The notes under the pieces are model-generated. The model saw only the letters and a program-made list of their open reading frames with translations. It did no database searches and was not told where the DNA came from. DNA of 64,000 bases from Liolophura sinensis (Eukaryota > Mollusca > Polyplacophora > Chitonida > Chitonidae): NCBI RefSeq assembly GCF_032854445.1, contig NC_088299.1, positions 16,301,608-16,365,607 of the forward strand. Direction: 5' to 3'. Positions 1 through 28,431 of this stretch are shown one piece after another; the first letter of the stretch is position 1, and every line of letters starts with the position of its first letter. Made by a program: the position numbers and the translations under genes.

Positions 1-1030
1 CAATCTTTGTACAGCAACAGGATGTGACTTGAGTTACCTTTGTGCAATCTTTGTACAGCAACAGGATGTGACTTGAGTTACCTTTGTGCCATCTTTGTAC
101 AGCAATGATATGTGAGATGATTTACCTTTGAGCAATCTTTGCACAGCAATGATATGTGAGGTGATTTACCTTTGAGCAATCTTTGCACAGCAACAGGATG
201 TGACTTGAGTTACCTTTGTGCAATCTTTGTACAGCAACAGGATGTGACTTGAGTTACCTTTGTGTACTCTTTGTACAGCAACAGGAAGTGACTTGAGTTA
301 CCTTTGAGCAATCTTTGTACAACAACAGATTGTGAGATGATTTACCTTTGAGCAATCTTTGCACAGCAATGATATGTGAGGTGATTTACCTTTGAGCAAT
401 CTTTGTACAGCAACAGGATGTGACTTGAGTTACCTTTGAGCAAACTTTGTACAACAACAGATTGTGAGATGATTTACCTTTGAGCAATCTTTGCACAGCA
501 ATGATATGTGAGGTGATTTACCTTTGAGCAATCTTTGTACAGCAACAGGATGTGACTTGAGTTACCTTTGTGCAATCTTTGTACAGCAACAGGAAGTGAC
601 TTGAGTTACCTTTGAGCAAACTTTGTACAACAACAGATTGTGAGATGATTTACCTTTGAGCAATCTTTGCACAGCAATGATATGTGAGGTGATTTATTTT
701 TGAGCAATCTTTGCACAGCAACAGGATGTGACTTGAGTTACCTTTGTGCAATCTTTGTACAGCAACAGGATGTGACTTGAGTTACCTTTGTGCAATCTTT
801 GTACAGCAACAGGATGTGACTTGAGTTACCTTTGTGCAATCTTTGTACAGCAATGATATGTGAGATGATTTACCTTTGAGCAATCTTTGTTCAACATTAG
901 ATTGTGAGATGATTTACCTTTGAGCAATCTTTGTTCAACATTAGATTGTGAGATGATTTACCTTTGAGCAATCTTTGTTCAACATTAGATTGTGAGATGA
1001 TTTACCTTTGAGCAATCTTTGTACAGCAAT
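1..1030 (-). repeat. 44-bp minisatellite, about 23 copies, 5' splice-site derived
   Basis: The array starts before position 1. On the minus strand each unit contains the exon-like stretch TGTACAAAGATTGCTCAAAG followed by a donor (GTAAATC or GTAACTC) and about 16 bases of intron. Two main unit variants alternate in blocks, one with GTAACTCAAGTCAC and one with GTAAATCATCTCAC. The last three units before the exon share a TTGAACAAAG variant. The array lies directly downstream of exon 5. Confidence 0.9.
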
Positions 1031-1082
1031 CGGACTCCCATCTCCTGTGAAGAAATCATCAGCAGTTTGACCGCCTTCTTCT
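1006..1082 (-). CDS. RWD-like gene, exon 5
   Basis: The exon has 77 bases between a TAATTACAG acceptor and an AAAG|GTAAAT donor. Two frames are open, depending on whether exon 4 is included: one ends G-V-R-L-L-Y-K-D-C-S-K, the other S-P-I-A-V-Q-R-L-L-K. The 3' end of the exon with its donor is the founder of the 44-bp array that fills the rest of the window to position 1. Confidence 0.5.
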
Positions 1083-4000
1083 CTGTAATTAGGATTGAAA
1101 AACTATGTCACTACATGGATTACAGAGACTTTAATACAGATATCAAAATTGAAATTTAACACATAAGACACCTGCATTCTACTAAGCTATGAAACAGACT
1201 TTGTATTCATTAAAAAGATGAATACAAATTCAAAATCGAAGGAAACACAAACCTCAGACTAATCTATCCAAAACAAAGAAAAAAAATGTCATGAATTAAT
1301 TAGTTCTTTTTCTACAGATATACATAGTACAGTGTGATCCTAATGAGATATAGAGTACAGTGTGATCCTAATGATATATATATATATATAGTACAGTGTG
1401 ACCCTAATGATATATGTAGTACAGTGTGATCCTAATGCCATATACAGTACAGTGTGATCCTAATAATATATACAGTACAGTGTGATCCTAATGATGTATT
1501 TTACACACATAACCAGAGCATTTGCGTAGAAAGGCTGTAATATAGGAGATTAAGTTGTTAAAATCAATTATACAGCCAAGATGTGGTGCACCATCCGCAT
1601 ATGATCGGCACATGATCCGAACAATGAATTGATGAACACTCATTTTGTTTGTACTATCAGCATAAACATTTTATTTACAAACATCAGAATCCAACTCCAA
1701 CTGTTTCGTAATTCACACACAAAATGCCGATTGCGTTTGGCTGTGCCCCCATTTTGCCATGTTTGGTAAATACAAAATCATAACTGGGCAATTTCAGGCC
1801 AGTACATAACTTTGTGAGGTAGTCAATTTATGTGATGAATACATCTTTTAGTTGTAATGAAACTGGGAAATGGTTAACCTAAACACTACCAATGGCTAAT
1901 AAACAACACATGTAGAGATTTTGGAGACTACTAGCAATAACTGTAGTCATCCAGGAACGTGGGTCCAATATTCCAATTCTAAATGAGACTACAAGTACTG
2001 GTTAATCCAAATCAGCACAAGCTGTGATCAGGATGATGCCAACACCTATGCATCTACAGCATAGCTGTAGGATCTGTGTGGGATCAGTACCACATACCAT
2101 CATCGTTGTAGGATGTGTGTGGGATCAGTACCACGTACCATCCTGGCTGTATGATCTGTGTAGGATCCTCACCACTTACCATCATGGCTGTATGATCTGT
2201 GCAGGATCCACACTACATACCATCGTGGCTGTATGATCTGTGTAGGATCCTCACCACATACCATCAGGGCTGTATGATCTGTGCAGGATCCACACTTCAT
2301 AGCATCATGGCTGTATGATCTGTGTAGGATCCTCGTCACATATGATCATGGCTGTATGATCTGTGTAGGATCCTCACCACATACCATCATGGCCGTATGA
2401 TCTGCGTAGGATCCTCACCACATACCATCAGGGCTGTATGATCTGTGTATGATCCTCACCACATACCATCATAGCTGTATGATCTGTGCAGGATCCTCAC
2501 CACATACCATCATGGCCGTATGATCTGCGTAGGATCCTCACCACATACCATCATAGCTGTATGATCTGTGTAGGATCCTCACCACATACCATCAGGGCTG
2601 TATGATCTGTGTATGATCCTCACCACATACCATCATGGCTGTATGATCTGTGCAGGATCCTCACCACATACCATCATGGCCGTATGATCTGCGTAGGATC
2701 CTCACCACATACCACCATAGCTGTATGATCTGTGTAGGATCCTCACCACATACCATCATGGCTGTATGATCTGTGCAGGATCCTCACCACATACCATCAT
2801 GGCCGTATGATCTGCGTAGGATCCTCACCACATACCATCATAGCTGTATGATCTGTGTAGGATCCTCACCACATACCATCATGGCTGTATGATCTGTGCA
2901 GGATCCTCACCACATACCATCATGGCTGTATGATCTGTGCAGGATCCTCACCACATACCATCATAGCTGTATGATCTGTGTAGGATCCTCACCACATACC
3001 ATCCTGGCTGTATGATCTGTGTAGGATCCTCACCACATACCATCATGGCTGTATGATCTGTGCAGGATCCTCACCACATACCATCCTGGCTGTATGATCT
3101 GTGCTGGATCCACACCACATACCACCATGGTGTAAATGAAGGCCTTGTGCTTTGTGCAGAAACAAGAGATTACTGCAGGTGATGTCTTCTGGATGTTTAA
3201 GATAAGATTGGTAAAATGGAAATGAATCTTGATTAACACTCCTCTGGAAAATTAAGTCAGGGCACATGTACACAAAACTTTCTTACAATGATTGTGAAAG
3301 CTGCGAGTCCCTTAAGGCATCAGTATCTTCATCTGGGTAGTAGATATCCACATCATCATCATCATCATCACCATCAGCATCATCATCAGCATCATCATCA
3401 TCCTCTAGTCCTTCATCCTTGTCCTCTATGTCCTCTTGCCCCACAGCCTCGGTGCCCAAAACCTACAGAGAGACAAATAACTCCACACCAATGACTTCTG
3501 TACAAGTCAAGGACAACACTGACTTAAGGCTGGTCCAGACGACTTTGTCACATGAAAACAAAACAGATCCAAGTCATAAGGAGTTCTCTAGGTATATGGT
3601 TAACATTCAACGTGACTTCATAATAAGCAACTAAATAATAAGCCACAAAATCAGTTCAATCCTGATGTCTGAGAGACGCCATGACCAGCTGGCTACACAT
3701 TCACACTGACGGTGACCTTTGAACTTACATGTTTGCCAGGCACCATGACCAGCTGGCTACACATTGACATTGACCTTTGACCTTATGTGTTTGAGTGACG
3801 CCATGACCAACAGGGTTCACCCTCACAATGACAGTGACCCTTGACCTTACGTGTTTGAGAGACGCCATGACCAGCAGGCTACATCTTCACCCTGACATCG
3901 AACTTTGACCTTACGTGTTTGAGTGATGCCATGACCAGCTGGCTACATCTTCACCCTGACATCGAACTTTGACCTTACGTGTTTGAGTGATGCCATGACC

Positions 4001-6357
4001 AGCTGGCTACATCTTCACCCTGACATCGAACTTTGACCTTACGTGTTTGAGTGACGGCATGACCAGCTGGCTACATCTTCACCCTGACATCGAACTTTGA
4101 CCTTACGTGTTTGAGTGACGCCATGACCAGCTGGCTACATCTTCACCCTGACATCGAACTTTGACCTTACGTCTTTGAGTGAGGCCATGACCAGCTGACT
4201 ACATCTTCACCCTGACATTGAACTTTGACCTTATGTGTTTGAGTGACGCCATGACCAGCTGGCTACATCTTCACCCTGACATCTAACTTTGACCTTATGT
4301 GTTTGAGTGACGCCATGACCAACAGGGTTCACCCTCACAATGACAGTGACCTTTGACCTTACGTGTTTGAGAGATGCCATGACCAGCTGTAAGACCTCCT
4401 CCACACTCCTCTGCTTGCAGCTCCCCAAGCTGTCCTGGATCGTCAGTAGTACTGGGATAAGCTCACTCTGCTCACTCCAAACCCTCTGAGGAAATACAAG
4501 TGTGATACAGTGTACAACATTGATTAACATCGACTGATGCCATGTACTGTACCATAGTATGTTTCTTAACCGTAAGGGTGTAAATAACAAAATTATTTCC
4601 ATCACATCATGTCATATACCGATAGTCTCTGTGTTAGCAGGCTGTTCCAAATGTCACCATGTGACAGCTATAGTGCTGCCTCACTACACCACACTTGTTG
4701 CCTGGATGACCCTGTCACAGTACAGCCATACCAGGTTACCCACTAAATGGTTACCCCAGTACAGTGTACAAGCAGCTTTCAATCAATCACCAAGTCCCAG
4801 GAAAAGAGAATCCATAAACTCTCTTATCAAGACAGGAATTAAACCCAAATCTTTTGTCATATAGCAATTTAAACACAATTAAGTGTCTCAGCCACTTAGC
4901 TATGTGCCCCTCTAATTTCAGCTAGAAGGTAGGATTTAACAGTGATTTTGTAGCAAGATGTATGCTTTTATATAAAGAGTGGTCCAGACCTTTGCTGAAA
5001 ATAGAGTCACTTGGGTTGTAGCTTCACATCATACTCAATAATTATTGGCTTGTGCAGTCAGTATTATGAGTGTAACAAACAAAGTAACTGATATAAACCA
5101 CTGACCTTTGTCAAATTACTGACGAACTTCCCCACATATGATGCACGGATATATGCACACCATTAGGCTGGTGGAAGACAAGTGGTCTTCAACAAGCGGA
5201 AGGCTGCACAAATGACCGTGTGAGCACTGTTGACTGCTTATAAGTCCCACAAATGACCGTGCGAGCACTGTTGACTGCCTATAAGCCCCACAAATGACCA
5301 TGCGAGCACTGATGACTGCTTAAAAGCCCCACAAATTCCGCATCTGGGCCAGGCCCATTTTAGGTCTGCAATAGACCACAGACCATAGCTTTCTCCCTAG
5401 AACCACTCATTTTATTTATTTATTTGATTGGTATTTTACGCCCTACTAGCAGTCCACCACTAGCCATGGGTTAACACCACTTGTCTCTTGTCCTCAAGGT
5501 TGACAGCAGCAGGCTTAAAGATATAGGGTAGGAGGAAACTGAGCAGAGCCCGGGAGATACCCACGGCCAATTGCAGGTTGCTGGAAGACCTCCCCATGTA
5601 CGGCGGGAGAGGAAGCCTGCAGGAGGTAGACTTGAACTCTCAGTGACTACATTAGTGGTAGGCTCCTATGTCATTATACCTTGTCAGAATGATGTTCGAG
5701 TAATGAATTTGTCTGTTCTTAGCTACATTCAGGCCTCAGTTAAGGTATGACCTTTTGACTTTGTTATTGAGTTTTGTGTCCTCCATGTAGAAAATCATAA
5801 GGAAATATAGACTACCGGTACACATTGGAGCCCAACCTGAGGAGAGTAGAAGCGCACAAAAGGCCTACACTAATCTTTCTAACTTTTGGGATACATATTT
5901 GTAGTGCTGAACGCAGAATAATACATACCTTTCCCAGATTTTTGGAAAAGTAAAGATATGAGTATGATGTTCACTAGATGGTCTAACCATGTGAGAAAAA
6001 TGAAACTAAATATTCCTGCCACAGTTACATGTATATTGGCTAAAAAGAACTGACTCGGTCTCCCCAAAGCTTGAAGAAATAAGGCATGTCTGCAGTACTG
6101 GTAAGCCTAATGCTTTGTTTTTAATTCCACAAATAAGACATAATCTAGTGTGAGTGTGACATTAAATTTACCCATTGTTGAGTCTTTTGATCTTCGGAAC
6201 AGACCAAATAGAATGAAACTTCCGCGTTGGAAGGGAGAATGAAATCCAGTCGTCTTTCCACATTGTCAGCTGTCAATAGCTGAAGACTCGATTTCTGTGA
6301 CGCTAGCCATTTCTCACAAGCTGATTTAATCGAACTAAAATCCGGTGCAGCTGCCAT
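1006..6357 (-). CDS. RWD/UBE2Q-like gene, 5' part (five candidate exons, runs off left edge)
   Basis: Minus-strand gene starting at ATG 6357-6355. Candidate exons are 6172-6357, 4363-4485, 3287-3462, 3123-3241 and 1006-1082, each with GT-AG borders and compatible phases. Residues 1-62 hold an alpha-helical start followed by a beta-rich stretch. Across the first junction, the segment W-R-V-W-S-E...L-I-P-V-L aligns with the W-x-V-x-S-x-x-x-x-L-x-x-V-L pattern of the N-terminal RWD-like domain of UBE2Q-type E2 proteins. Next comes an acidic linker rich in Asp, as UBE2Q proteins also have at that place. If exon 4 is skipped, exon 5 reads S-P-I-A-V-Q-R-L-L-K, which is like the first helix of a UBC fold. 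The C-terminal catalytic part is outside the window, so no active-site residue can be checked. The gene is divergently arranged with the SDR gene at 8 kb. The gene call is fairly secure; the family assignment is an inference from short motifs. Confidence 0.6.
1083..2019. other. Intron of RWD-like gene, mostly unique
   Basis: AT-rich intronic sequence. Apart from the 28-bp array at 1321-1500 I see no exon, RNA gene or recognisable mobile element in it. Confidence 0.5.
1321..1500. repeat. 28-bp tandem repeat, about 6 copies
   Basis: Units share GTACAGTGTGATCCTAATGA followed by a variable AT dinucleotide stretch; one copy has an expanded TA run. The unit length drifts because of the TA part. 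Confidence 0.8.
2020..3122 (-). repeat. 41-bp minisatellite, about 26 copies, next to a 5' splice site
   Basis: The unit on the plus strand is GTATGATCTGTGTAGGATCC plus about 21 more bases, with a BamHI-like GGATCC in most copies. On the minus strand each unit carries GATGGTATGTGG, the same donor-like sequence that ends the possible exon 4. Units at the 2020-2150 end are the most diverged. The array sits immediately downstream of that exon. Confidence 0.85.
3123..3241 (-). CDS. RWD-like gene, possible exon 4
   Basis: This is an open stretch (S-V-N-Q-D-S-F-P-F-Y-Q-S-Y-L-K-H-P-E-D-I...) between a TTTTCCAGAG acceptor and a GTATGT donor. With this acceptor it joins exons 3 and 5 without a stop; the alternative acceptor two bases earlier gives a stop in exon 5. 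It would be separated from exon 3 by an intron of only about 45 bases, which is unusually short. Skipping it also leaves an open frame into exon 5, so it could be a cassette exon or not an exon at all. Confidence 0.4.
3287..3462 (-). CDS. RWD-like gene, exon 3 (poly-Asp linker)
   Basis: The exon starts in phase 0 after a CTGTAG acceptor and ends in phase 2 at a GTAAGA donor. It encodes V-L-G-T-E-A-V-G-Q-E-D, then a long Asp run made by an imperfect GAT repeat, then D-I-Y-Y-P-D-E-D and a Ser/Gln-rich end. The triplet repeat sits in frame, so its length variation would change only the Asp tract. Reading through the donor meets TAA at once, so splicing is required. Confidence 0.6.
3350..3405. 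repeat. Triplet repeat (CAT/ATG) inside exon 3
   Basis: Imperfect (CAT)n run with CAC and CAG interruptions. Read on the minus strand in the exon 3 frame it gives the poly-Asp tract with a few Ala/Gly. Confidence 0.85.
3668..4400 (-). repeat. 64-bp minisatellite, about 11 copies, 5' splice-site derived
   Basis: The minus-strand unit begins with TGGTCATGGCGTCACTCAAA, then CAC|GTAAGGTC, then about 35 bases of former intron. The unit nearest the exon merges into exon 2 itself, where the same bases are coding (L-V-M-A-S-L-K-H). A shorter variant with AACAGGGTTCACC occurs twice, at about 3810 and 4320. Confidence 0.88.
4363..4485 (-). CDS. RWD-like gene, exon 2
   Basis: The exon has 41 codons, phase 0 to phase 0, from RVWSEQSELIPVLLTIQDSL to ...VMASLKH. 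The acceptor is a pyrimidine-rich tract ending CCTCAG and the donor is CAC|GTAAGG. It continues the RWD-like domain. The last ~24 bases and the donor are the founder sequence of the adjacent 64-bp minisatellite. Confidence 0.65.
5206..5334. repeat. 42-bp tandem repeat, about 3 copies
   Basis: Three consecutive units share CACAAATGACCGTGCGAGCA and TTGACTGCTTATAAG-type sequence, with a few substitutions between them. Confidence 0.75.
5405..5685 (-). mobile_element. tRNA-derived SINE, diverged copy
   Basis: Reversed copy. The TTTATTTATTTATTTGATTG tail is at the left, followed by the body (GGTAGGAGGAAACTGAGCAG, TTGCAGGTTGCTGGAAGACC), with the B-box side (AGACTTGAACTCTCAGTG) to the right. The middle differs from other copies, so it is either an old copy or a subfamily. 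Confidence 0.65.
6172..6357 (-). CDS. RWD-like gene, exon 1 (initiator)
   Basis: This exon encodes 62 residues from MAAAPDFSSIKSACEKW to ...SEDQKTQQW and ends in phase 0 before a GTAAAT donor at 6171. The start ATGG has a purine-poor upstream context. An out-of-frame upstream ATG lies 13 bases 5', inside the presumed leader. Codon use and the balanced helix/strand pattern look coding, unlike the surrounding AT-rich sequence. Confidence 0.65.
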
Positions 6358-8037: not shown

Positions 8038-8521
8038 ACCTAGCAAGCATGAGGAGCAATTAAATTAAAGACAAGATGAAGTCTGCGTTGGTCATTGGGG
8101 CATCTCGTGGCATCGGGCGACGCATCGCTTTGACATTGAGTAAGAACAATTATCAAGTGGGCGTAGCTGCCAAGACAACTGATCATACCCTAGAGTTACC
8201 CGGCACCATTTATTCTGTGACGAACGAGATTGAGACCTCTGGCAGGACAGCGCTCGCGCTTCCGTGTAATGTTAGAGATGAGCAACAGATTCAAAATGCG
8301 ATACAAAGTTGTCTTGAGGCATTTGGAGGCCTTGACTTTGTTGTTTATAATGCTGGAGCAATTCTGTGGAAGAAAGTGCTTGACACCCCAGTGAAGCGGT
8401 TTGACCTAATGCAGGAGGTGAACGTGAGAGGTGCATACATCATGATACAGAAGGTACTGCCTTACTTTCTGGAGAAGAAAGCAGGCAAAATCCTCCTCGT
8501 CTGTCCTCCAATCTACAGTAG
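8038..8521 (+). CDS. SDR gene, first coding exon
   Basis: An acceptor (TTGTTATTTCAG) ends at 8037, so at least one upstream non-coding exon exists. ATG at 8076 is chosen because it places the first beta strand (S-A-L-V-I-G-A-S) at the N-terminus as in other SDRs. The exon ends AGTAG|GTGAGT in phase 2. Confidence 0.85.
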
Positions 8522-11500
8522 GTGAGTATGCAGTGATTTTCAGTCATGTCATTGAAGGCTGTCCAAAGCTGTGTCATAAATCTATGATGTGTTAAGAGAT
8601 GTATAAATCTTAGTAACCATGCAGCCATTCATGATTTTGTAACACCGCAGATAAAATATACCGGCCAGCTACATCAAGGCCAATGGGAACGGCCATTCAT
8701 TCCGGGAACGGCCATTCATTCTGGGAAAGTGTGTTGTGCACATTGTCCCTAAGGTTAATGGTTAAAGTGGTAATGCGGTAGTGATACAGGTGTAAACTGG
8801 ATGCCAGCAACTGCACAAGCGTAACTTCCTGTTGGGTCGGTGTTAAAAGTGTCACATTTACGTTTATCATTTCGACTTGTAGCATAAAAAGTCCAGCACA
8901 GTACAATGACCCTACCACAATGCTGGCCACTGTTGTATAAGTGAAATAGTCTTGAGTACGTCATAAAACACCTATCAAATAAATATAATAAATAAATAAA
9001 TAAACAGAAAGTCAATTGTAGCACTAGACTTTAAAAACCCGTTTATTTATTCCCATATCTGTATTTGCTTTTCAGATTTTTCAAAGGCAAAGTTCCCTAC
9101 TCAGTTGGTAAGGTGGGAATGACTGTCCTGGTACATGGGTTAGCCACAGAGTTAGAAAACACAGGTAAGATAGAGTTGACACATCACCCAGTGAGACTAC
9201 CCACAGGTGTCAGTTGGTAAAGTGGGAATGTCTGCTCTTGTCCATGGGCTAGCCACAGAGTTAGAAAACACAGGTAAGATAGAGTTGACACATCACCCGG
9301 TGAGACTACCTACTGGTGTCAGTTGGTAAGGTGGGACTGACTGCTCTGGTCCATGGGTCAGCCACAGAGTTAGAAAACACAGGTAAGATAGAGCCGGCTG
9401 ATCACCCAGTGAGACTACCCACATTTGTCAGGTGGTAAGGTGGGAATGTCTGCTCTTGTCCATGGGCTAGCCACAGAGTTAGAAAACACAGGTAAGATAG
9501 AGCCGGCTGATCACCCAGTGAGACTACCCACAGGTGTCAGGTGGTAAGGTGGGAATGACTGTCCTGGCACATGGGCTAGCCACAGAGTTAGAAAACACAG
9601 GTAAGATAGAGCTGGTTTATTACCCAGTGAGACTACCCACATTTGTCAGGTGGTAAGGTGGGAATGTCTGCTCTTGTCCATGGGCTAGCCACAGAGTTAG
9701 AAAACACAGGTAAGATAGAGCTGGCTTATTACCCAGTGAGACTACCCACATTTGTCAGGTGGTAAGGTGGGAATGTCTGCTCTTGTCCGTGGGCTAGCCA
9801 CAGAGTTAGAAAACACAGGTAAGATAGAGTTGACAGATCACCTACAGGTGTCAGTTGGTAAGGTGGGAATGACTGTCCTGGTACATGGGTTACCCACAGA
9901 GTTAGAAAACACAGGTAAGATAGAGCCGGCTGATCACCCAGTGAGACTACCCACAGGTGTCAGTTGGTAAGGTGGGAATGACTGTCCTGGCACATGGGCT
10001 AGCCACAGAGTTAGAAAACACAGGTAAGATAGAGCCGGCTGATCACCCAGTGAGACTACCCACAGGTGTCAGTTGGTAAGGTGGGAATGTCTGCTCTGGC
10101 ACATGGGCTAGCCACAGAGATAGAGAGCACAGGTAAAATAAAGCTGACAGATCACCCAGTGAGACTACCCACAGGTGTCAGGTGGTAAGGTGGGAATGAC
10201 TGTCCTGGCACATGGGCTAGCCACAGAGTTAGAAAACACAGGTAAGATAGAGCTGGCTGATCACCCAGTGAGACTACCCACATTTGTCAGTTGGTAAGGT
10301 GGGAATGACTGTCCTGGCACATGGGCTAGCCACAGAGTTGGGAAACACAGGTAAGATAGAGTTGACACATCACCCAGTGAGACTACCCACAGGTGTCAGT
10401 TGGTAAGGTGGGAATGACTGTCCTGGTACATGGGTTAGCCACAGAGTTAGAAAACACAGGTAAGATAGAGCCGGCTGATCACCCAGTGAGACTATCCACA
10501 GGTGTCAGTTGGTAAGGTGGGAATGACTGTCCTGGTACATGGGTAAACCACAGAGTTAGAAAACACAGGTAAGATAGAGCTGGCTGATCACCCAGTTAGA
10601 CTACCCACAGGTGTCAGTTGGTAAGGTAGGAATGACTGTCCTGGTACATGGGCTAGCCACAGAGTTAGAAAACACAGGTAAGATAGAGCCGGCTTATTAC
10701 CCAGTGAGACTACCCACATTTGTCAGGTGGTAAGGTGGGAATGACTGTCCTGGCACATGGGCTAGCCACAGAGATAGAGAGCACAGGTAAGATAGAGCCG
10801 GCTGATCACCCAGTGAGACTACCCACAGGTATCAGGTGGTAAGGTGGGAATGACTGTCCTGGCACATGGGCTAGCCACAGAGATAGAGAGCACAGGTAAG
10901 ATAGAGCCGGCTGATCACCCAGTGAGACTACCCACAGGTGTCGGTTGATAAGGTGGGAATGTCTGCTCTTGTCCATGGGCTAGCCACAGAGTTAGAAAAC
11001 ACAGGTAAGATAGAGTTGACAGATCACCTACAGGTGTCAGTTGGTAAGGTGGAAATGACTGTCCTGGTACATGGGTTACCCACAGAGTTAGAAAACACAG
11101 GTAAGATAAAGCCGGCTGATCACCCAGTGAGACTACCCACAGGTGTCAGTTGGTAAGGTGGGAATGACTGTCCTGGCACATGGGCTAACCACAGAGTTAG
11201 AAAACACAGGTAAGATAGAGCCGGCTGATCACCCAGTGAGACTACCCACAGGTATCAGTTGGTAAGGTGGGAATGTCTGCTCTGGCACATGGGCTAGCCA
11301 CAGAGTTAGAAAACACAGGTAAGATAGAGCCGGCTGATCACCCAGTGAGACTACCCACATTTGTCAGGTGGTAAGGTGGGAATGACTGTCCTGGCACATG
11401 GGCTAGCCACAGAGTTAGAAAACACAGGTAAGATAGAGCCGGCTGATCACCCAGTGAGACTACCCACAGGTGTCAGTTGGTAAAGTGGGAATGTCTGCTC

Positions 11501-13185
11501 TTGTCCATGGGCTAGCCACAGAGTTAGAAAACACAGGTAAGATAGAGCCGGCTTATTACCCAGTGAGACTACCCACATTTGTCAGGTGGTAAGGTGGGAA
11601 TGACTGTCCTGGTACATGGGCTAGCCACAGAGATAGAGAGCACAAGTAAGATAGAGTTGACATCCAGTGAGATTATACCCGCATGAATCATTATTTCAGA
11701 TAGTTTTTCCTCATGTGTTGCTATCACAGATTGTTTTTCTCCTTAACAGCGAGTGTCTCACGATTGTTTGTTTTGCCTTGACTCAATATAGCACATTGTT
11801 TTTTCTCTCCATGATTCTGACCTGACCTGGAGTCATTATCTCAGATTGTTTTTCTCTCTAGAAATAAACATCTCAGATTCTTTTTCTCTCCAGAAATCAG
11901 TATCTCAGATTGTTTATCTTCTCATTCATCTCAATATGTTTATCTCACTAGTAGTCACTATCTCAGATTGTTTTTCTCTCCCAAGAGTAATTACCTTTTG
12001 TGTGATTATCTCCAGATTGTTTAATTTCCCAGGAGGGGGGATCTCAGATTCTTTATCTCAACAGGTGTTATTATCTTAGATTGTTTATCCCCACATGAGT
12101 CAGGTTCACAGATTGTTTAACCCTGGAAGAATCAGTATCTCAGACTGTTTATCTCTCCATGAGTTATCTCTGATTGTTTATCCTCACAGGAGTCAGTATC
12201 TCCGGTCTGTGGCCAGCCACAGCCATTGAATCGCATGTCACCACAGTGAAAAATGTACCCCAAGAATTGATGAGGAAATCCAGTATATTTGCTGATGCTT
12301 GTCTTCATATAGCTGAGGAAACAAATCTAAGCTTGTGAGTAAATCATCTTGTAATGTTATTATGCAGACAGGTTAAAATGGGTTTGCCATCCTGAGTACT
12401 TCCTACTGAAGAACCCCTTCTAGATCTGTGTGGCATTAGTCTTTGGTGGATTTCTTGGAGAGATTTCCCAATTTTGATGGGCACCTGACCAGTTTTGTTA
12501 CAGACTTGATTCTTACTAGTTCAGCTGTGCTTGAAAGTCTGAAGATTCGTCAATTACTTGACAGAGGGCTGTGGTTTATTTTGGGCACTCTGGTTTCCTT
12601 CTATAATGGTGGACCATCAGAACTCTTCATCATCATTGTATGGGTGTAACATTCTTGAGGAAATACCATTGAAAAATAAAAAAGAAATTGACTCACTTGT
12701 TTTTGTCCCAAGTCCACCTCATGCTGGTTTCCTCTCTGTTCTTCCATGGGATTGTCTCCCAGTAACCTGCAGATAGTCCTGGGATTCCCCGGGCTGTACC
12801 CAGTTTCCACTCACCATAATGCAGGCTGCTGTCATGCTAAATGAAATATTATTGATTGTGGTGTAAAACACCAGTCAAATAAAATGAATAAAGTATTTCT
12901 GACAGTGAGGACAAACTACTTTTGCATGAACATGAAGTAGTTTGTACAGCTGGAGAGTGTTAGGATGGACAGATCCCCTGACGCAAGTTTTCTTGTCTCA
13001 TCTCACCTGTTCTGTATTACAGGATCAATGGTAAAGCCTTGATTGATGAGGATTTCCTGAGAGCCAAAGGTGTGACAGATTTCTCCGCATATCGATGTGA
13101 CCCAGACAAGGAACCTCCCAGGATGATGCCTAAAGCCTTTCCCTCTCTCCTGGTGGAGGGGGATTCTCTAACATCCAAGCTTTAG
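8038..13185 (+). CDS. HSDL2-like: Short-chain dehydrogenase/reductase, HSDL2-like SDR domain only
   Basis: The coding exons 8076-8521, 9076-9164, 12190-12334 and 13023-13185 join in phase to 280 residues; 8038-8075 is leader. The Rossmann motif GASRGIG is at residues 8-14, NAG at 92-94, structural Asn at 116 (EVNVRG), and catalytic Y157-x-x-x-K161 (YSVGK). The stretches LPGTIYSVTNEIE, NVRDEQQI and LWPATAIES match the corresponding segments of HSDL2, a peroxisomal/mitochondrial SDR-SCP2 protein. This product stops after the SDR fold and has no SCP2 sterol-carrier domain. The position equivalent to the catalytic Ser in HSDL2 (I-S-P-P) is Cys143 (V-C-P-P). It is probably an NAD(P)-dependent oxidoreductase of unknown substrate. 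The end S-K-L-stop is a perfect peroxisomal targeting signal type 1. Confidence 0.85.
8905..9003 (+). mobile_element. SINE 3' fragment
   Basis: Tail half of the common SINE: ATAAGTGAAATAGTCTTGAG, then CATAAAACACCTATCAAATA and an (AAAT)n run. The head is missing. It lies in the SDR intron, just before the acceptor of the 9076 exon. Confidence 0.7.
9076..9164 (+). CDS. SDR gene, exon with catalytic Tyr/Lys
   Basis: After a TTGCTTTTCAG acceptor it encodes F-F-K-G-K-V-P-Y-S-V-G-K-V-G-M and ends E-L-E-N-T-G at ACAG|GTAAGA, phase 1. The segment after the first 29 bases is the template that was multiplied in the following intron. Confidence 0.85.
9165..11660 (+). repeat. About 109-bp minisatellite, about 23 copies of an exon end plus 5' splice site
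   Basis: Each unit carries about 60 bases matching the end of the 9076-9164 exon (TTGGTAAGGTGGGAATG to AAAACACAG), then the donor GTAAGATAGAG, then about 49 bases of intron ending CCCACAGGTGTCAG. Copies of TGGTAAGGTGGGAATG-type sequence start near 9212, 9321, 9431, 9540, 9650, 9759, 9854, 9963 and so on to 11586. A shortened unit (about 95 bp) occurs twice, at about 9759 and 10945. The duplicated exon part is a multiple of three, so a spliced copy would stay in frame. Confidence 0.92.
11690..12189 (+). repeat. Degenerate 30-45-bp repeat derived from a 3' splice site
   Basis: Repeating pattern GAGTCANTATCTCAGATTG followed by TTTNTCTCTCC and usually an AG. The last occurrence is the real polypyrimidine tract and AG of the exon at 12190, whose first bases (GAGTCAGTATCTCC) are the start of the unit. 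At least six upstream units keep a plausible acceptor, for example TTTTTCTCTCCAG near 11893 and TTTAATTTCCCAG near 12030. Confidence 0.8.
12190..12334 (+). CDS. SDR gene, penultimate exon
   Basis: The exon begins GAGTCAGTATCTCC after TATCCTCACAG and encodes V-S-I-S-G-L-W-P-A-T-A-I-E-S, the conserved LWP segment after the active site, to ...E-E-T-N-L-S-L. The donor is GTGAGTAA. Its first bases recur in degenerate form upstream. Confidence 0.85.
12705..12895 (+). mobile_element. SINE copy, diverged, head truncated
   Basis: The body is recognisable from AAGTCCACCTCATGCTGGTT through CAGTTTCCACTCACCATAAT to TGTAAAACACCAGTCAAATA and an AAAATGAATAAA tail. It lies in the last SDR intron. Confidence 0.65.
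13023..13185 (+). CDS. SDR gene, last exon with PTS1-like C-terminus
   Basis: The acceptor is CTGTATTACAG. The exon encodes I-N-G-K-A-L-I-D-E-D-F-L (equivalent to T-G-N-F-V-I-D-E in HSDL2) and ends L-T-S-K-L-stop, TAG at 13183-13185. The C-terminal SKL is the classical peroxisomal import signal. Confidence 0.85.
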
Positions 13186-14469
13186 CCGAGGAGAGTATGA
13201 CATCTGGACAAGAGAATCCTGGTTTGACAAACAATGAAATATCAGAGTGGGAAGTTTACAGATACATAACTGCAAAACAGAAAGCGAAAGTGGTGATTCA
13301 TGAATACTACATAGTGTGATTCTGACCAAAAGTTTGAATCCTCAGAGAGCAGATTACTCTTCTGATTCTTATCTGTTCCTCTTCTGAGATGAATGACACA
13401 CCAGGTGCACGTTCCATTTGTACCTTTTTGGCCACTGGAATAGCCAAGTGTCAATTTTTTTTTTTCATTTGGCACAAGTGGTCAGCCAGAATGCTGTTGA
13501 TCACATGATAATGACTCAACAATACGTTTGATAGTTAGGAATGTCACCACAAGTCCTCTGTGGAGCACATGAATTCTGAATGTGTTGCCTATATCCAGTG
13601 TAAACCATCATACCCTAGGAAATACCTGAAATCAGGATAGAAGTCTCATGCTATCCAAGAAGAGAGAAAATCAGTAAAGATTTTAATTACACTGTCAGTG
13701 ACTTGTGAACAATGTAGGGCTAAAGGTGTTACTGGCTCAATACTGTTGTGAACACAGTCCTTAAGGAGGTTCGTATGTTGCAGCGTAATGACCCAGGAGC
13801 CTCTCACCAATGCAGGTGCTATGAGTTCAAGTCCAATTCATGCTGGCTTTGTCTCCGGCCGGATGTGGGAAGGCCTGTCAGCAACCTGTGGATGATCGTG
13901 GATTTTCCCCCAGGCTCAAAGTCATCGTTTTTCTCTCACTATAATGCTCAAAGCCAGCGTATGAGTGAAGTTGGAATACTGCCGAAGCTTTAACATGTAG
14001 AAAAATACATGTAGGTTAACTGGAACAAAGTGTACACTAATTGTATGCAGCTATTTTCTTTAAGATACAGAATTATATTTGTGAAGTTTGATCAGAGCAA
14101 ATGAATTCTGCTCTTTCTCATTTGATCATACAATGAGGAACCATTAAATATTCCGTTTTTGTGATACATGTATTATATTACAAGAGCTTGGAGTTCCCAA
14201 TTTATACACCATCTTGCCTGCTATGCTAAGATTGATTGTGGTGGATTTTTGTCTAGTGGTTAGAAACTCGGTGGTAGGCTGTTCAATTCCAACTTCGGGC
14301 AGGTAATTGTAAAAACTCCAGCTTTTATCTGTTCAGGGGGCCGTCCTACAACAGCAGGGCGATTTATGTCATATTACATGAAGTCCGCTACAAATGCCAT
14401 GTCATCCATGTTTGTGGAATACACATTCAGCTGCACAAAATCTTTGTGATACACCATAAATGTTTTAGA
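13186..14469. other. 3' flank of SDR gene
   Basis: Contains the SDR 3' UTR of unknown length, a SINE (13776-13955) and a second tRNA-like head at about 14250-14300 (TAGTGGTTAGAAACTCGG, then GTTCAATTCC). No further gene seen. Confidence 0.45.
13776..13955 (+). mobile_element. tRNA-derived SINE, head and body
   Basis: The head includes TAATGACCCAGGAGCCTCTC and the B box GAGTTCAAGTCC, followed by the CATGCTGGCTTTGTCTCCGG body; the tail is degraded. The B box confirms that this end is the pol III promoter side. Confidence 0.7.
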
Positions 14470-17400: not shown

Positions 17401-17870
17401 CTCATACCCATTGAATGAGCCTTGTTTAACTGATCCTGACTTCATGCTGGCACGTCATAAAGGTTTAGAACAGAGCTCATACCCATTGACTGAGCCTTGT
17501 TTAGCTGATCCTGACTTCATGCTGGCACGTCATAAAGGTTTAGAGCAGAGCTCATACCCATTGACTGACCCTTGTTTAGCTGACCCTGACTTCATGCTGA
17601 CACATCGTAAAGGTTTAGAGCAGAGCTCATACCCATTGACTGAGCCTTGTTTAGCTGATCCTGACTTCATGCTGGCACGTCATAAAGGTTTGGAGCAGAG
17701 CTCATACCCAGTGACTGAGCCTTGTTTAGCTGATCCTGACTCCATGCTGACACGTCATAAAGGTTTGGAGCAGAGCTCGTACCCAGTGACTGAGCCTTGT
17801 TTAGCTGATCCTGTCTCCATGCTGGCATGTCATAAAGGTTTGGAGCAAATCTCACACCCAGTGACTGATA
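14465..17870. repeat. 75-bp minisatellite, about 45 copies, open frame on plus strand
   Basis: The unit is 75 bases (25 codons). Read on the plus strand it gives T-E-P-C-L-A-D-P-D-F-M-L, then a variable triplet (ARH, THR, RRR, RRH, TCH), then K-G-L-E-Q-S-S-Y-P-(L/V). One 1-base insertion (about 15740) and one deletion (about 17075) break it into open frames of about 427, 443 and 281 codons. Several minus-strand frames are also open in places. I see no start context, splice sites or terminal exon to support expression, so I annotate it as a satellite. Subunit variants are interspersed, which indicates repeated unequal exchange. Confidence 0.9.
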
Positions 17871-20057: not shown

Positions 20058-20435
20058 CTAACGCCCACTCTCCGTCACTCTGGAATCTGCAGGAGTGCTG
20101 GACCGTGATTCTGAGCGTGACGTTGATGATGAGGAATTTGCTGGACTGGGGGCGGGCCTAGGGCTCAGAGCTGGTTCCCGTGGTAACTTGGTGCCATTAG
20201 GCGAGGATGTGCTGCTGGCCGCCCGCTGCTCGCGTGCGTCTGAGGAGGTGGTGGTTGCTGCCGATGTGGTGGTGCTGGTTGCAGTAGCAGCTGCTGCAGC
20301 GGCGGCTGCCGCCGTCTTGCCACAAATGTGGTGATGGTTCTCCCAGTCTTTATGCTGACAAAATGAGCCGCAGTATCGTGCCACATTACACCCACTGCAA
20401 GTCTCACTTGCCTTCCTACCACAGTTCCAACAGCT
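20058..20435 (-). CDS. MTG gene, last exon with MYND finger
   Basis: Begins [16 protein letters not shown] after TCATTTTCAG and includes [20 protein letters not shown], a complete C4-C2HC MYND zinc finger known in this family to bind PPPLI-type motifs of NCoR/SMRT. The tail has nine consecutive Ala (GCN mix), then Thr/Ser-rich and Ser/Pro-rich sequence, ending E-S-G-R-stop (TAG at 20058-20060). Confidence 0.97.
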
Positions 20436-23400: not shown

Positions 23401-26400
23401 CCTCTCTGGCCGTACGTGGAAAGGTCTGCCAGCAGCATACAGATGGTCGGATGGTTTCCACTGGGCATTGCCCAGTTTCCTCCCATCATAATGCTGGGTG
23501 CTGGCATATAAGTGAAATATTCTTGAGCGTGGCAAAAAACACCACTCAAATAAATAAATAACTAAAATCACTATCTTACTTGTTAGCATTTATTCTAGCA
23601 TCAACACCAATGAGTATGAAGTGAACAGTTAGTCAGCTAAGAGTTATCTCCCCTTACACGCAGGTGCTAATTTCTGCTACACAAATCCTGTCTTCTTTTC
23701 TCTGCCTCAAAGAACATCTGTCTGACCCAGAATTCAAAAGAAGCCTTTGTTGTGGAACAAACTCACTCCTGTTTATCATACAGCCTAAACTATTTGTCAT
23801 GACAGGGTAGAAATGTGTGGGGAGTGAAACAAAATGTTACATGTTGCTGAACAAGGAGGACGGAGGAGAAGAGATTGATCTGAATTGTGATAATGCTATT
23901 CACGACAATGGCAGTACAGGCCATACGTAACCTGTCTGGGTAATGGCTACATGTACACTGTCTGGGCGGCCAAATTGCATGGGTTTTTGGGGGCTGAAGT
24001 GGACAAATGGGTTACAGCAGCATGGCTGGAGCTAAGTCCACCCTAAATTAGCATCCACTCTACTGCTTTCATTTGAGACGGCCACCCTTATGTTTTATAA
24101 GACCATCTTGTTCAAGAGTTCTAAAACCCGTGAAGTGACAGTTCAGATTTCTCCGCAAAAATGGTGATCAAATTACACATGATCTTTCAAACAGTGATCA
24201 AATCACACATGATCTTTCATTTCCAACACCATACTTCAGTTTATCAAGATCAGTCTAGTTCTCTGTTCGAACAGACACAAGAATCTGAGATGTGAGAATT
24301 ACAACCCAGTACTTTCACATTTCACACTAAAGAACTCGATCTGATATATATTCCATATTTGCACTTAAAACACATTTTCTTCAATTAATGAATGACTTAT
24401 CAGCCCCTGACGTCGCAGACCTTATAATGTATATTGTCTTTATTCTTACACACTATGGTCATCATAGTTTACAGTGTGTGTATCTTTCAATGACCAGAGC
24501 ATCAGTGTCTCAACTAGACATCATGTGGTCTGAGTGAGGAGGCTGCCGAGGCTGAGAGAGCAGATGCTACATCACCTGTCTCAGTGACATCACACCCAGC
24601 ACTATCCCCAGTCACCTCTCTCTAGCTGTGTGCCAACCAGTTTGCTCACACACACACACACACATATCCCGAATCATTGCTACTTGCCACTGCCTTATTT
24701 CCTCAAAAAGACCTTTTCTTATCATCTTTTTCTCCAATAAAAACTTCTTAAATGACATGTGTAATGAGTATTTTGTCATTTTTGTAATGGTGACTAATAA
24801 TTGTACAATAAGTCCACAAAATATGTGCCTGCTAAATAGTCAAGCTTCACAACACTGGCAAACGGATGCTACGTGTATGTCCCAACCCAGACAACACGAA
24901 ACCTTACCTGTCAGGCGACCTGCGTTTACCGTTCTCGTTGATGTCAGATGGCAGTGTATCCTGGGACTCCGTTGGAGAACTGTTAGCATCAAACAGTATA
25001 TGTTCATTATGGGCCAGGTACTGCTGAGTCGTCTGTTTGGACATCCGTGCGCAGTGTAGCAGTTCCCGCTGCAGAAGGGGTAGATTGGCCTGGAGAAAAA
25101 AAATCAAGAAATTCTAAATAAAGATTTAGGGTGCAATATGGACCTATCAAAGTGTAATAATTAGTTTAATTAGTTTGAATGTGATGAAACCCAAACCCAC
25201 AGTGCCAAGAATACCTGTAATTCTAACGAGGGCCAACTTAAGAATTTAACTACGTCTGCGTTGTCAAATAATTTCTCTCTTAGTCTTCTACATAATCTCT
25301 TCCATCAGATTAAATAAATAAATAAATAAATAAAGCTTCTGTAATTCAGCTGTTGTTTTAATGTGACTATATGACAGGAGCTTATCAGTCTTGCTGTACT
25401 TTCATAGCCATTTACACCAGCTGACACATATAGAATGCAAACGAGATATTGTTAAAACCTTCTATAATCTCACAAATCTACAAACATCTGTTGCTTGCAG
25501 TATTTTATTGTTAAGGACTTTTCATAATTTTTCCGAAACTACTTTATTTTACTTTTATCATCAATGTACTTTTTGTGCACAAAAACTTATGTCTCCAATT
25601 TTTCTGCCTATAAATCAGAATTCTTCCTGGGCGATTGAGCTGAGTAACCATCTGTTGTCTGAGAGTGTATAGATCAGTGGGGAGAGGGGTGACAGAGGGG
25701 TGGGAGGGGAGAATCTAAGGTACAGCTGTCGGTATGGCCAGTACACAAAGGCTAGCACAAGGAAGAAAACCCGGTTACTATGAGCAAACGATTTACATAC
25801 AGGCTGCCATTGTTAAAACATAATAAAAGAAATCTCTCCCCTCTCTAGGGTGCCCCCCCTCCCCCAACCCTTTCGATGTAGAACATGTGTGACCTCAGAG
25901 AACATAGAGCCCACACGTACACAACAAACAGGCAACCCCTTAAACAGCCTCAAATCTGCCCTCGTAAAAGCAACAAATTATCCAGTTTTTCAATCCATGG
26001 TCACAGATGTTTGCAAGGTGACTATCAGGAAATAAAATTTGAATTTTAAAATTAATTTCAAACTGGAAACATCGCTTAGTGGTGATTTTATGTGATACTG
26101 CTTAACACAGGAATCAACAGCTGTTTGGAGATTTGAATAATGATAGGCATTTTCAAAATGACACTTAAATCTGTCCAAGTAATAGAAAGCTTCACATAAC
26201 CAAATATTTTTTTTATTTACTTAACTACACATAGCTCTACATACTGTGCATATTATTTTCAATTAAATCTTGGAAAGTTAAATATTTTCAATTTCATTTC
26301 TAAATACTTAGAAATGTAAAACATACAAACTGAATTTACAAGCCACTCAGACAGTGAATACCCGTGTCGTTGTGCTCACAACAACATCAGACATCAGCCA

Positions 26401-27548
26401 TTGTGCTCACCTTAAGGAATGGAATAACAAATGGTCGAAGAGGGAAATTGGTAGCCTCTTGCAATTTTGCGTGAAATTCTTCTATTGACAAATGAGAGTT
26501 CTGAAAAGAAATTAACAATTCATTTATCCTATTGTACTGTAAACGTTATTTACTGTAAATTAAATTAGATCCAAATGCTGAATCAGCACTAGTTGGATTT
26601 ATATCACTGATAAAGGGTAACATATTTCTAGGGAGAAGACTTTTACATATTATACATGGAAAAAATACACCTACATTGTGCACAATATTTTTGTATCAAA
26701 TATTCTAAAAACCAGTGAAGACCTACTTGAATAAGTTTTGCAGTAAGCATAAAGCTAAACATACCACTAATCCTAAGACAAGTGTGCGGACCCGTTCCCC
26801 TATCTCAGGAGAGATGTCGGAGCCAAACTGCTGCAGTGTGGTGAGAAAACGTTTGAGCTTGCTGAGCTGTCTGGCCCCGCAAGCTGGGGGAAGTTGCTGG
26901 CTAGAGGCAGTGCTGCCCATGGAGGGTGGGGACGGGGTGCGTCCGTTAATACTGCTCAGCGGGGAGTGAGAGCCGTTCAGACCTGAAACATATCAAACAA
27001 TTAACAGATATTATATAAAATCTGACCCACAAGATGTGACGGACATCCACGTCTAGTCAGAAGAGTGGCTCTGACAGCTCAATGGAAAAGTTGCTGCTTT
27101 AAAATTAATCAAGTTTTCTCTTACAAAATCTCATCAAAATGCAAGATAGATCTGAATTGAGGATACAGACCATTGGGATCCTTTCTAGGAATGTACGTAG
27201 CATTAGGGCTGAACTGAATCCAGGCAATCCTAAACCTGTCAGAGTGTATTAACCTGTGGATCAAGCTGACATGAAGTCGTCAATGAAAGCTGTCCTCCTC
27301 AATGCAAAATGAGACAGAAGTGAAAAAAAACATGAAACACATTCGCTTTGATTTATCGTTCTTCTTAGATTTATTGACTAATCTGATACATGTCATTCTG
27401 TAAGCCTCACCTGACATGGTGCTTCCGCTGGAGTGGGGGCGTGTGATGGCAGCCACCCCTGCGATGGCGGTTGATGTGGGCGAGGTAGTCGTCTGAGAGG
27501 GTACTTTGGACTCAGGGGGCGAATCCGGCATAATGCTGTCCCGGTAAT
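20058..27548 (-). CDS. CBFA2T: ETO/MTG-family transcriptional corepressor (RUNX1T1/CBFA2T/nervy)
   Basis: Nine exons on the minus strand join in phase. From the ATG at 27531-27529 (M-P-D-S-P, as in vertebrate MTG proteins) they give about 571 residues, close to human RUNX1T1. Domains: NHR1/TAFH at about residues 74-175 ([20 protein letters not shown]); NHR2 oligomerisation helix at about 305-345 (W-K-H-V-E...M-V-D-K-T-K-R); NHR3 at about 383-435 ([19 protein letters not shown]); and a MYND finger at 448-484 with Cys448, 451, 459, 462, 468, 472, His480 and Cys484. By family knowledge, such proteins are nuclear scaffolds that bring HDAC/NCoR/SIN3 complexes to DNA-bound factors. They do not bind DNA themselves. 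The C-terminal tail after MYND has an Ala/Thr/Ser-rich run not found in vertebrate members. Upstream non-coding or alternative first exons are expected to the right. Confidence 0.97.
20883..21073 (-). CDS. MTG gene, NHR3 exon
   Basis: Encodes [20 protein letters not shown]...E-R-S-K-M-E-R-S-L and ends [10 protein letters not shown] in phase 0 at GTGAGT. The coiled-coil character matches NHR3. Confidence 0.95.
21338..21608 (-). mobile_element. tRNA-derived SINE, near full length
   Basis: Reversed copy in the MTG intron. The tail is AATTTATTTGATTGATG, the body TGCTCAAGAATATTTCACTT and GCCAGCATTATGATGGGAGG, and the head (B box on the minus strand, then a tRNA-like start) reaches CTCAACCACTGAGG at the right. 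Confidence 0.85.
21777..21990 (-). CDS. MTG gene, NHR2 exon
   Basis: Starts [16 protein letters not shown] after GTTACAG and contains [11 protein letters not shown]. It ends V-K-R-R-A in phase 1 at GTGGGT. NHR2 is the amphipathic helix through which MTG proteins tetramerise. Confidence 0.95.
22245..22309 (-). CDS. MTG gene, short exon before NHR2
   Basis: The exon has 65 bases between a CCTTTCAG acceptor and a GTAGGG donor. It encodes [21 protein letters not shown], equivalent to the E-W-K-H-L start of NHR2 in vertebrate proteins. Confidence 0.9.
22330..22490 (-). mobile_element. SINE, 3' portion
   Basis: Reversed copy with tail TTTATTTATTTTACTAGAGT and body CGCTCAAGAATATTTCACTT to CCCACGTACAGCCAGAGAGA; the tRNA head is missing. 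Confidence 0.8.
22954..23210 (-). CDS. MTG gene, variable linker exon rich in Arg/Glu
   Basis: Encodes [18 protein letters not shown], a Ser/Pro stretch, then a charged run of R-E-R/L-E-R-E-R repeats to F-Y-P-T-G-F. The donor is GTTAGT, which is less canonical. The charged repeat is lineage-specific; the ends align with the family. Confidence 0.9.
23211..24907. other. MTG intron
   Basis: Contains a SINE (23398-23575), a direct repeat GATCAAATCACACATGATCT in two copies (about 24166 and 24194) and a (CA)n run at 24646-24664. Nothing else recognisable. Confidence 0.5.
23398..23575 (+). mobile_element. SINE, body and tail
   Basis: Forward copy from CTCTCTGGCCGTACGTGGAA to AGTGAAATATTCTTGAGCGT and an AAATAAATAAATAA tail; the tRNA head is absent. 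Confidence 0.8.
24908..25089 (-). CDS. MTG gene, exon after NHR1
   Basis: Starts [20 protein letters not shown] after a CTCCAG acceptor and ends [13 protein letters not shown] at GACAG|GTAAGG, phase 2. It contains the end of the TAFH domain and the basic N-E-N-G-K-R-R motif, a likely nuclear localisation segment. Confidence 0.95.
25090..26410. other. MTG intron, unique AT-rich sequence
   Basis: Intron between the two exons around the end of NHR1. It has a short (AAAT)n run at about 25310-25335 and otherwise shows no element I can identify. Confidence 0.5.
26411..26500 (-). CDS. MTG gene, exon encoding second half of NHR1/TAFH
   Basis: Exactly 30 codons in phase 0 ([20 protein letters not shown] to ...V-I-P-F-L-K), between TTCTTTTCAG and GTGAGCAC. 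Nearly identical to vertebrate MTG proteins. Confidence 0.95.
26765..26982 (-). CDS. MTG gene, exon encoding first half of NHR1/TAFH
   Basis: Starts after TATGTTTCAG, ends LVLGLV at GTATGT. Encodes [10 protein letters not shown] and the highly conserved [20 protein letters not shown] segment, then [12 protein letters not shown]. Confidence 0.95.
27411..27548 (-). CDS. MTG gene, exon with MPDSP start
   Basis: The acceptor is TTGTACTTGTAG and the donor ATGTCAG|GTGAGG. It encodes [16 protein letters not shown] from the in-frame ATG, and ends in phase 1. The 17 bases before the ATG are open (Y-R-D-S-I), so an upstream coding exon could extend the N-terminus. Confidence 0.85.
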
Positions 27549-27589
27549 CTACAAGTACAAAAAATGACACCTGCTGAAGGGTACTACAT

Positions 27590-28394
27590 GTACACAAGAC
27601 ATTCACCTGACCACTGTGGATCTGAAAATCTTCACAGACCACTACCAGGGAAATACAGGTAAATTATCTTCAGGTGAGTTGTGTACACAAGACATTCACC
27701 TGACCGTTGTGGATCTGAAAATCTTCACAGACCACTACCAGGGAAATACAGGTAAATTATCTTCAGGTGAGTTGTGTACACAAGACATTCACCTGACCGT
27801 TGTGGATCTGAACATCTTCACAGACCACTACCAGGGAAATACAGGTAAATTATCTTCAGGTGAGTTGTGTACACAAGACATTCACCTGACCGTTGTGGAT
27901 CTGAACATCTTCACAGACCACTACCAGGGAAATACATGTAAATTATCTTCAGGTGAGTTGTGTACACAAGACATTCACCTGACCGTTGTGGATCTGAAAA
28001 TCTTCACAGACCACTACCAGGGAAATACAGGTAAATTATCTTCAGGTGAGTTGTGTACACAAGACATTCACCTGACCGTTGGGGATCTGAAAATCTTCAC
28101 AGACCACTACCAGGGAAATACAGGTAAATTATCTTCAGGTGAGTTGTGTACACAAGACATTCACCTGACCATTGTGGATCTGAAAATCTTCACAGACCAC
28201 TACCAGGGAAATACAGGTAAATTATCTTCAGGTGAGTTGTGTACACAAGACATTCACCTGACCGTTGTGGATCTGAAAATCTTCACAGACCACTACCAGG
28301 GAAATACAGGTAAATTATCTTCAGGTGAGTTGTGTACACAAGACATTCACCTGACCGTTGTGGATCTGAACATCAACATGTACAAATACACTAC
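27590..28394. repeat. 93-bp minisatellite, about 8 copies
   Basis: Unit of 93 bases (31 codons), very homogeneous, from GTGGATCTGAAAATCTTCAC through CAGGGAAATACAGGTAAATT to GACATTCACCTGACCGTT. Because 93 is a multiple of three it forms a 260-codon plus-strand frame. It lies in the intron just upstream of the MTG MPDSP exon. Its right edge resembles a minus-strand GTAGTG donor next to a candidate exon. Confidence 0.9.
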
Positions 28395-28431
28395 CTGAAG
28401 ATGTGCTAAGTCTAAGCCTCCTGGCTCCCAT
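28395..28431 (-). CDS. Candidate alternative first coding exon of the MTG gene
   Basis: On the minus strand an ATG at 28431 opens 12 codons (M-G-A-R-R-L-R-L-S-T-S-S) and ends CTTCAG|GTAGTG in phase 1. That is exactly the phase needed by the exon at 27548; the joined reading continues [11 protein letters not shown]. Vertebrate MTG genes use alternative short N-terminal exons at this place. The stretch is short and could be chance. Confidence 0.25.

Follow-up and report, generated by a model that had tools for sequence, protein, structure and literature searches.

Minisatellite arrays of the chiton Liolophura sinensis straddle exon-intron junctions about fourfold more often than random placement predicts in a sample of genes chosen independently of their repeats, and they do so mainly at donor sites. 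We consider it likely that these are mirage-type minisatellites, that is, tandem duplications whose unit happens to span a splice site and which were then expanded. The pattern was discovered in a 64,000-bp stretch of DNA, called the window here (C5:16,301,608-16,365,607, within the 609-Mb, 632-contig chiton genome). Every array named in an earlier note on this DNA was recovered in the window by TRF, and the features discussed below are listed in Table 1.

The plus strand of the window carries an SDR gene with an array at each end of its second intron. The 109-bp unit consists of the final 64 bp of exon 2 and 45 bp of intron 2, and includes the donor, which reads AAACACAG at the exon end followed by GTAAGA. 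Exon 2 contains what we take to be the YSVGK active-site region. The Pfam adh_short match is continuous over residues 2-189 and spans both edges of intron 2, so that protein homology (SDR) confirms the straddled donor as genuine. The ~32-bp array takes in the polypyrimidine tract, the AG and the first 8 bp of exon 3, consistent with the 3' splice-site array that had been described in the window, and degenerate copies can be followed by eye back to about 11690. Intron 2 (window 9101-12197) is thus opened by a donor-straddling array and closed by an acceptor-straddling one. Past the SDR stop codon lies a 75-bp array of 45.5 copies (14455-17868) with no known adjoining exon.

Three further arrays are found along a minus-strand gene encoding a DUF4581 protein. 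The 64-bp array includes the final 27 bp of exon 2 and the donor (TCAAACAC at the exon end, then GTAAGG). The Pfam match to DUF4581 covers residues 12-130, with the exon 2/3 junction inside the match, and this homology confirms the donor as genuine; a search of NCBIfam with the same gene gave no match. The 41- and 44-bp arrays probably straddle the donors of two predicted exons. These exons (3123-3172 and 1006-1082) have an open frame and splice signals, and no homology was found for them, which is why we grade both arrays as probable. The 44-bp array continues to the left of the window and has 68.5 copies in total. Therefore, among the four arrays that the earlier note had anchored at donors, those of 109 and 64 bp are borne out by homology, and those of 41 and 44 bp are probable from splice signals and frame.

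The 93-bp array had been put forward as a possible further example, and we rejected it. Between its end and the acceptor of a RUNX1T1-like, minus-strand exon lie ~40 bp, and the donor-like motifs that it contains are on the strand opposite to that exon. The RUNX1T1/MTG8-like gene itself occupies 20040-27548 on the minus strand, with TAFH, NHR2 and MYND domains by Pfam. A dispersed element, which we presume to be SINE-like, has copies at 21340-21600, 22330-22500 and 23400-23560, among others.

Table 1 Gene models and tandem arrays in the window. Positions are those of the window.
Feature	Position	Strand	Basis or anchor
SDR gene exon 1	8076..8521	+	splice/homology model
SDR gene exon 2, donor at 9165	9076..9164	+	splice/homology model
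109-bp array, 23.7 copies	9101..11656	+	TRF; anchored at SDR exon 2 donor
~32-bp array, TRF pieces 11838-11980 and 12074-12197	11838..12197	+	anchored at SDR exon 3 acceptor
SDR gene exon 3, acceptor before 12190	12190..12334	+	splice/homology model
SDR gene exon 4, up to stop	13023..13187	+	
DUF4581 gene exon 1	6172..6357	-	splice/homology model
DUF4581 gene exon 2	4363..4485	-	splice/homology model
64-bp array, 11.4 copies	3666..4389	-	TRF; anchored at DUF4581 exon 2 donor
DUF4581 gene exon 3; short intron after it, without array	3287..3462	-	
Predicted exon 4, same gene as DUF4581; weak acceptor	3123..3172	-	splice signals and frame
41-bp array, 26.2 copies	2060..3134	-	includes final 12 bp of predicted exon 4 and donor
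Predicted exon 5, same gene as DUF4581	1006..1082	-	splice signals and frame
44-bp array, 23.4 copies in window	1..1029	-	includes final 24 bp of predicted exon 5 and donor
93-bp array, 8.5 copies	27589..28374	.	unanchored

Because the window is the discovery set, no null was computed for it, and the comparison with random placement is confined to an independent sample. The genome was searched with three family models, PF00118 (CCT/HSP60), PF12774 (dynein) and PF00063 (myosin), and regions were picked by their exon hits with repeats ignored. We used 47 of 50 PF00118 matches (nine genes; the other three lie outside the nine multi-exon genes), all 90 PF12774 matches and 44 of 81 PF00063 matches (nine genes, 37 matches left out). 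Two of the left-out myosin genes had unusually long open frames that might have to do with arrays. Open frames of 1339 and 1870 aa, each with several myosin exon hits, were seen at C3:10775981-10779943 and C8:10565028-10571210. These frames exceed the length suggested by the coding distance and possibly contain stop-free intronic repeats. The sample comprises 37 regions (274,231 bp) from 44 loci, with 181 exon hits and 58 arrays (period at least 15, copies at least 2.5, score at least 100). Exon ends were defined by Pfam hits and splice scores rather than transcripts, many exons in the sampled regions are unmodelled, and the weights used in splice scoring were assumed values.

An array was counted as straddling when it reached at least 4 bp into an exon hit and at least 15 bp beyond it without covering the hit. 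Long arrays often overlap exons by length alone, so in the null every array was reduced to a single unit and given a uniformly random position in the likewise collapsed region from which it came, never wholly within an exon hit. By this rule 14 arrays straddled junctions against 2.84 expected in the unweighted null, and none of 20,000 simulations reached 14. All 14 were inspected, and one CCT3 array (at 1156) was dropped by eye, as it begins 12 bp past the donor and the HMM hit had overshot. This leaves 13 of 58 arrays, or a strict count of 12 of 58 (Poisson P 1.6e-4) when an acceptor array of CCT3 that holds a single exon base is also removed.

The excess bears directly on the simplest alternative, in which arrays are dense and common and some land on junctions by chance. 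The arrays are indeed richer in GC than the introns (0.43 vs 0.37), which favours exon ends. A null weighted by GC still gives only 3.28 expected against 13 observed (simulated P 3e-5). All three gene sets point in the same direction under this null: 4 of 21 arrays straddle in the CCT/HSP60 set (1.10 expected, P 0.019), 4 of 9 in the dynein set (1.23 expected, P 0.022) and 5 of 28 in the myosin set (0.94 expected, P 0.0014). The result does not depend on CCT3, which holds three straddlers (10 of 52 without it, 2.81 expected, P 2e-4), nor on short arrays (11 of 44 with at least five copies, 2.57 expected), and it is seen in the 102 introns with both ends confidently fitted (6 of 16 array rows, 2.26 expected, P 0.010). 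We note that arrays within one gene are not fully independent, and the P values should therefore be taken as guides. With the absence of a word-count excess described below also weighed in its favour, we regard chance as very unlikely.

Donors contribute most of the excess, with 9 straddlers against 1.66 expected. The 4 acceptor straddlers against 1.61 expected are not significant (Poisson P 0.08), and neither is a preference for donors over acceptors, either in the sample alone (P 0.27) or with the window arrays added (13 vs 5, P 0.10). Other sampled arrays do not straddle a junction. In one dynein region (L020), two arrays merely abut exons, one at 1495-4027 that ends 28 bp before an acceptor and one at 4905-6130 that starts 9 bp past a donor. 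A myosin gene (L040/L041) has a 26-bp array of ~124 copies that is internal to an intron and off the junction, at sense positions 3062-6300 of the joined 12,901-bp region.

A crude genome-wide count of words did not reproduce the excess. The donor word CAGGTAAGT occurs three times in near copies at least 301 times, against at least 158 for the reversed word, and as a single 9-mer at least 9837 times against at least 4862. The ratios for triples and singles are equal, so the count of matches shows no excess of repeated donors. On contigs C1 and C2, which were listed in full, distinct arrays number 14 for the donor word and 6 for the reversed word, and these numbers are small. This test is blunt, as the words are exact, many are not real donors and long arrays dominate the counts. 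Since the word count shows none, the genome-wide excess rests on the exon-based sample. The predicted excess over random placement thus holds in the 37 sampled regions and not in the word count. Among the 45 non-straddling arrays, a strong sense donor (score at least 8) is present in 8 units, vs 5.9% of random intron segments; a strong antisense donor in 4 units, vs 2.9%; and a sense acceptor in 2, vs 6.6%.

Could the arrays be an artefact of assembly, to which tandem repeats are prone? The genome report describes the Liolophura japonica genome as a PacBio HiFi assembly with a mean read of 8,347 bp (PMC11068029), and copies differ among themselves in all six arrays that we aligned. An artefact therefore seems extremely unlikely to us.

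The units of the junction arrays are 31-124 bp long. No cross match was found at E <= 1e-3 among the 21 arrays compared, so that the unit sequences are unrelated, as the earlier note had held, and a spreading element was rejected for these 21. Together with the excess in each of the three gene sets, this argues for a recurrent process, in line with the general pattern proposed from the window. The units carry conserved peptides, for example of CCT5, CCT3, dynein and myosin, and the arrays were therefore derived from exons rather than exons from arrays. Exonization of a pre-existing intronic repeat was accordingly rejected, given the deeply conserved CCT, dynein, myosin and SDR peptides held in the units.

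Across 13 donor arrays (4 in the window and 9 in the sample), the array overlaps the exon by 6-115 bp, more than the few bases that had been expected. The exon share of the unit ranges from 0.14 to 0.94 and fits a uniform spread (KS P 0.69, a weak test with 13 arrays). The splice site can thus be anywhere in the unit, and the breakpoints therefore look random on either side of it; nothing points to a break or starting point tied to the junction itself. Mutation directed to junctions, in which duplications are triggered at exon ends, foremost at donors, by co-transcriptional R-loops or by nicks or breaks linked to splicing, would account for an excess that is greatest there and for 13 donors to 5 acceptors with the window included. 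The lack of a significant donor preference and the even distribution of splice sites along the units speak against it, and we find it rather doubtful. Slippage, break repair and R-loops had also been named as causes at the outset; nothing that we found shows them at work, and the variable position of the splice site lends them no support. Alternatively, duplications may be seeded at random, and those at splice sites may persist because deletion of the array with its flank would lose the exon end, with the conserved exon copy serving as a template. This account agrees with the even spread of splice-site positions and with the fact that arrays turn over and their copies drift. On the other hand, plain deletion seems, in our judgement rather than by computation, unable to yield a factor of 4 to 5 at donors. 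We hold survival of this kind to be a real possibility that falls short of likely. The residual excess may come from a higher rate of duplication at exon ends or from better survival of arrays there.

A partial count located 132 downstream donor copies in the 13 donor arrays (6 of them in the 109-bp array). GT is retained in 122 of the 132, and the score of 94 is no more than 1 bit below that of the used site. Retention of GT is above the 86.5% identity per base of neighbouring bases, as might be expected if the copies were functional, with repeated donors recruiting U1 snRNP, aiding the splicing of long introns, blocking early polyadenylation or supplying alternative exons. However, copies within one array are not independent, and the units ignore the reading frame. 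Only 3 of 18 unit lengths are divisible by three, so that splicing from a later donor would in most cases disrupt the frame. In the six aligned arrays, 9 of 58 later copies contain premature stops. We give functional copies little credence, and for the same reasons of unit length and stops we do not favour tandem coding exons or frame-preserving variation. Exon and intron columns are similarly diverse in four of the six aligned arrays, and in the CCT3 and myosin arrays the exon columns are more variable than the intron columns. Third codon positions are about twofold more variable in two of the six (dynein, 0.086 vs 0.049; myosin, 0.026 vs 0.013). In view of this third-position excess and the exon-column variation, the copies may not be fully neutral.

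Taken together, the mirage-type reading suggests the following course of events. The initial duplication would be a product of slippage, of microhomology repair or of unequal exchange, and the last of these would later let the array grow and shrink. Duplications lying fully within an exon would be purged, and those over an exon edge would survive. The exon-proximal splice site would remain in use, since as a rule only the proximal site keeps the reading frame, and the spliceosome would presumably choose the first donor in a series of near-identical ones that can number dozens. The remaining copies would be intronic and drift nearly freely, with a longer intron as their chief effect. A bolder extension is that a general bilaterian process, so far noticed as a set of curiosities in lancelets, favours the duplication of 5' splice sites and that introns in some genomes owe much of their growth to it as a main source; exon ends would then be hot spots of tandem duplication through transcription or splicing, leaving intact decoy donors that first-site choice ignores. 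We consider this extension unlikely to hold.

If the excess holds genome-wide, exon ends would be sites at which tandem duplications preferentially arise or survive. This would also provide a direct and testable route to intron lengthening and intron gain, and the arrays would be natural material for studying how the spliceosome selects one donor from many that are nearly the same. As lancelets and chitons are far apart, the process would then be old or have evolved repeatedly.

Introner elements are related, dispersed repeats in introns that carry splice signals. The chiton arrays share with them the presence of intronic repeats with splice signals, but the 21 arrays show no such relatedness at E <= 1e-3. 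Intron gain by tandem duplication (AGGT duplication) likewise crosses the exon-intron border and copies the splice signals. In that case one duplication yields a new intron, whereas the chiton arrays are found in existing introns and have many copies. No mollusc case was found in the literature searched, which covers the field in part. The closest match is with the amphioxus 'mirages' of Adh3, the globins BflGb6/BflGb9, troponin C and PGBD5, which the reports treat as single genes, with splicing said to be undisturbed by the inner copies and intron gain proposed (PMC3087553, PMC3902484). As described there, mirages resemble the chiton arrays: both are minisatellite-like tandem duplications of exon-intron boundaries, occur at 5' and 3' splice sites alike (9 donors and 4 acceptors in the chiton sample, 4 and 1 in the window), and have unrelated units of varied length, with many copies retaining splice signals (AG/GT in amphioxus). 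Units spanning the boundary, as in mirages, are found by homology in two donor arrays and one acceptor array of the window and in 12-13 of the 58 sample arrays. Splicing, and instability of length between haplotypes and in soma, have been shown for the amphioxus mirages; the chiton arrays are known from one genome assembly. The chiton is a mollusc and not a cephalochordate, several of its arrays have more copies, and the excess over random placement has been estimated in it. In anatomy, therefore, the chiton arrays are the same as amphioxus mirages and the pattern is already known in kind; the present data extend it to a mollusc and to long arrays, and give an estimate for the excess, with a non-significant lean towards donors.
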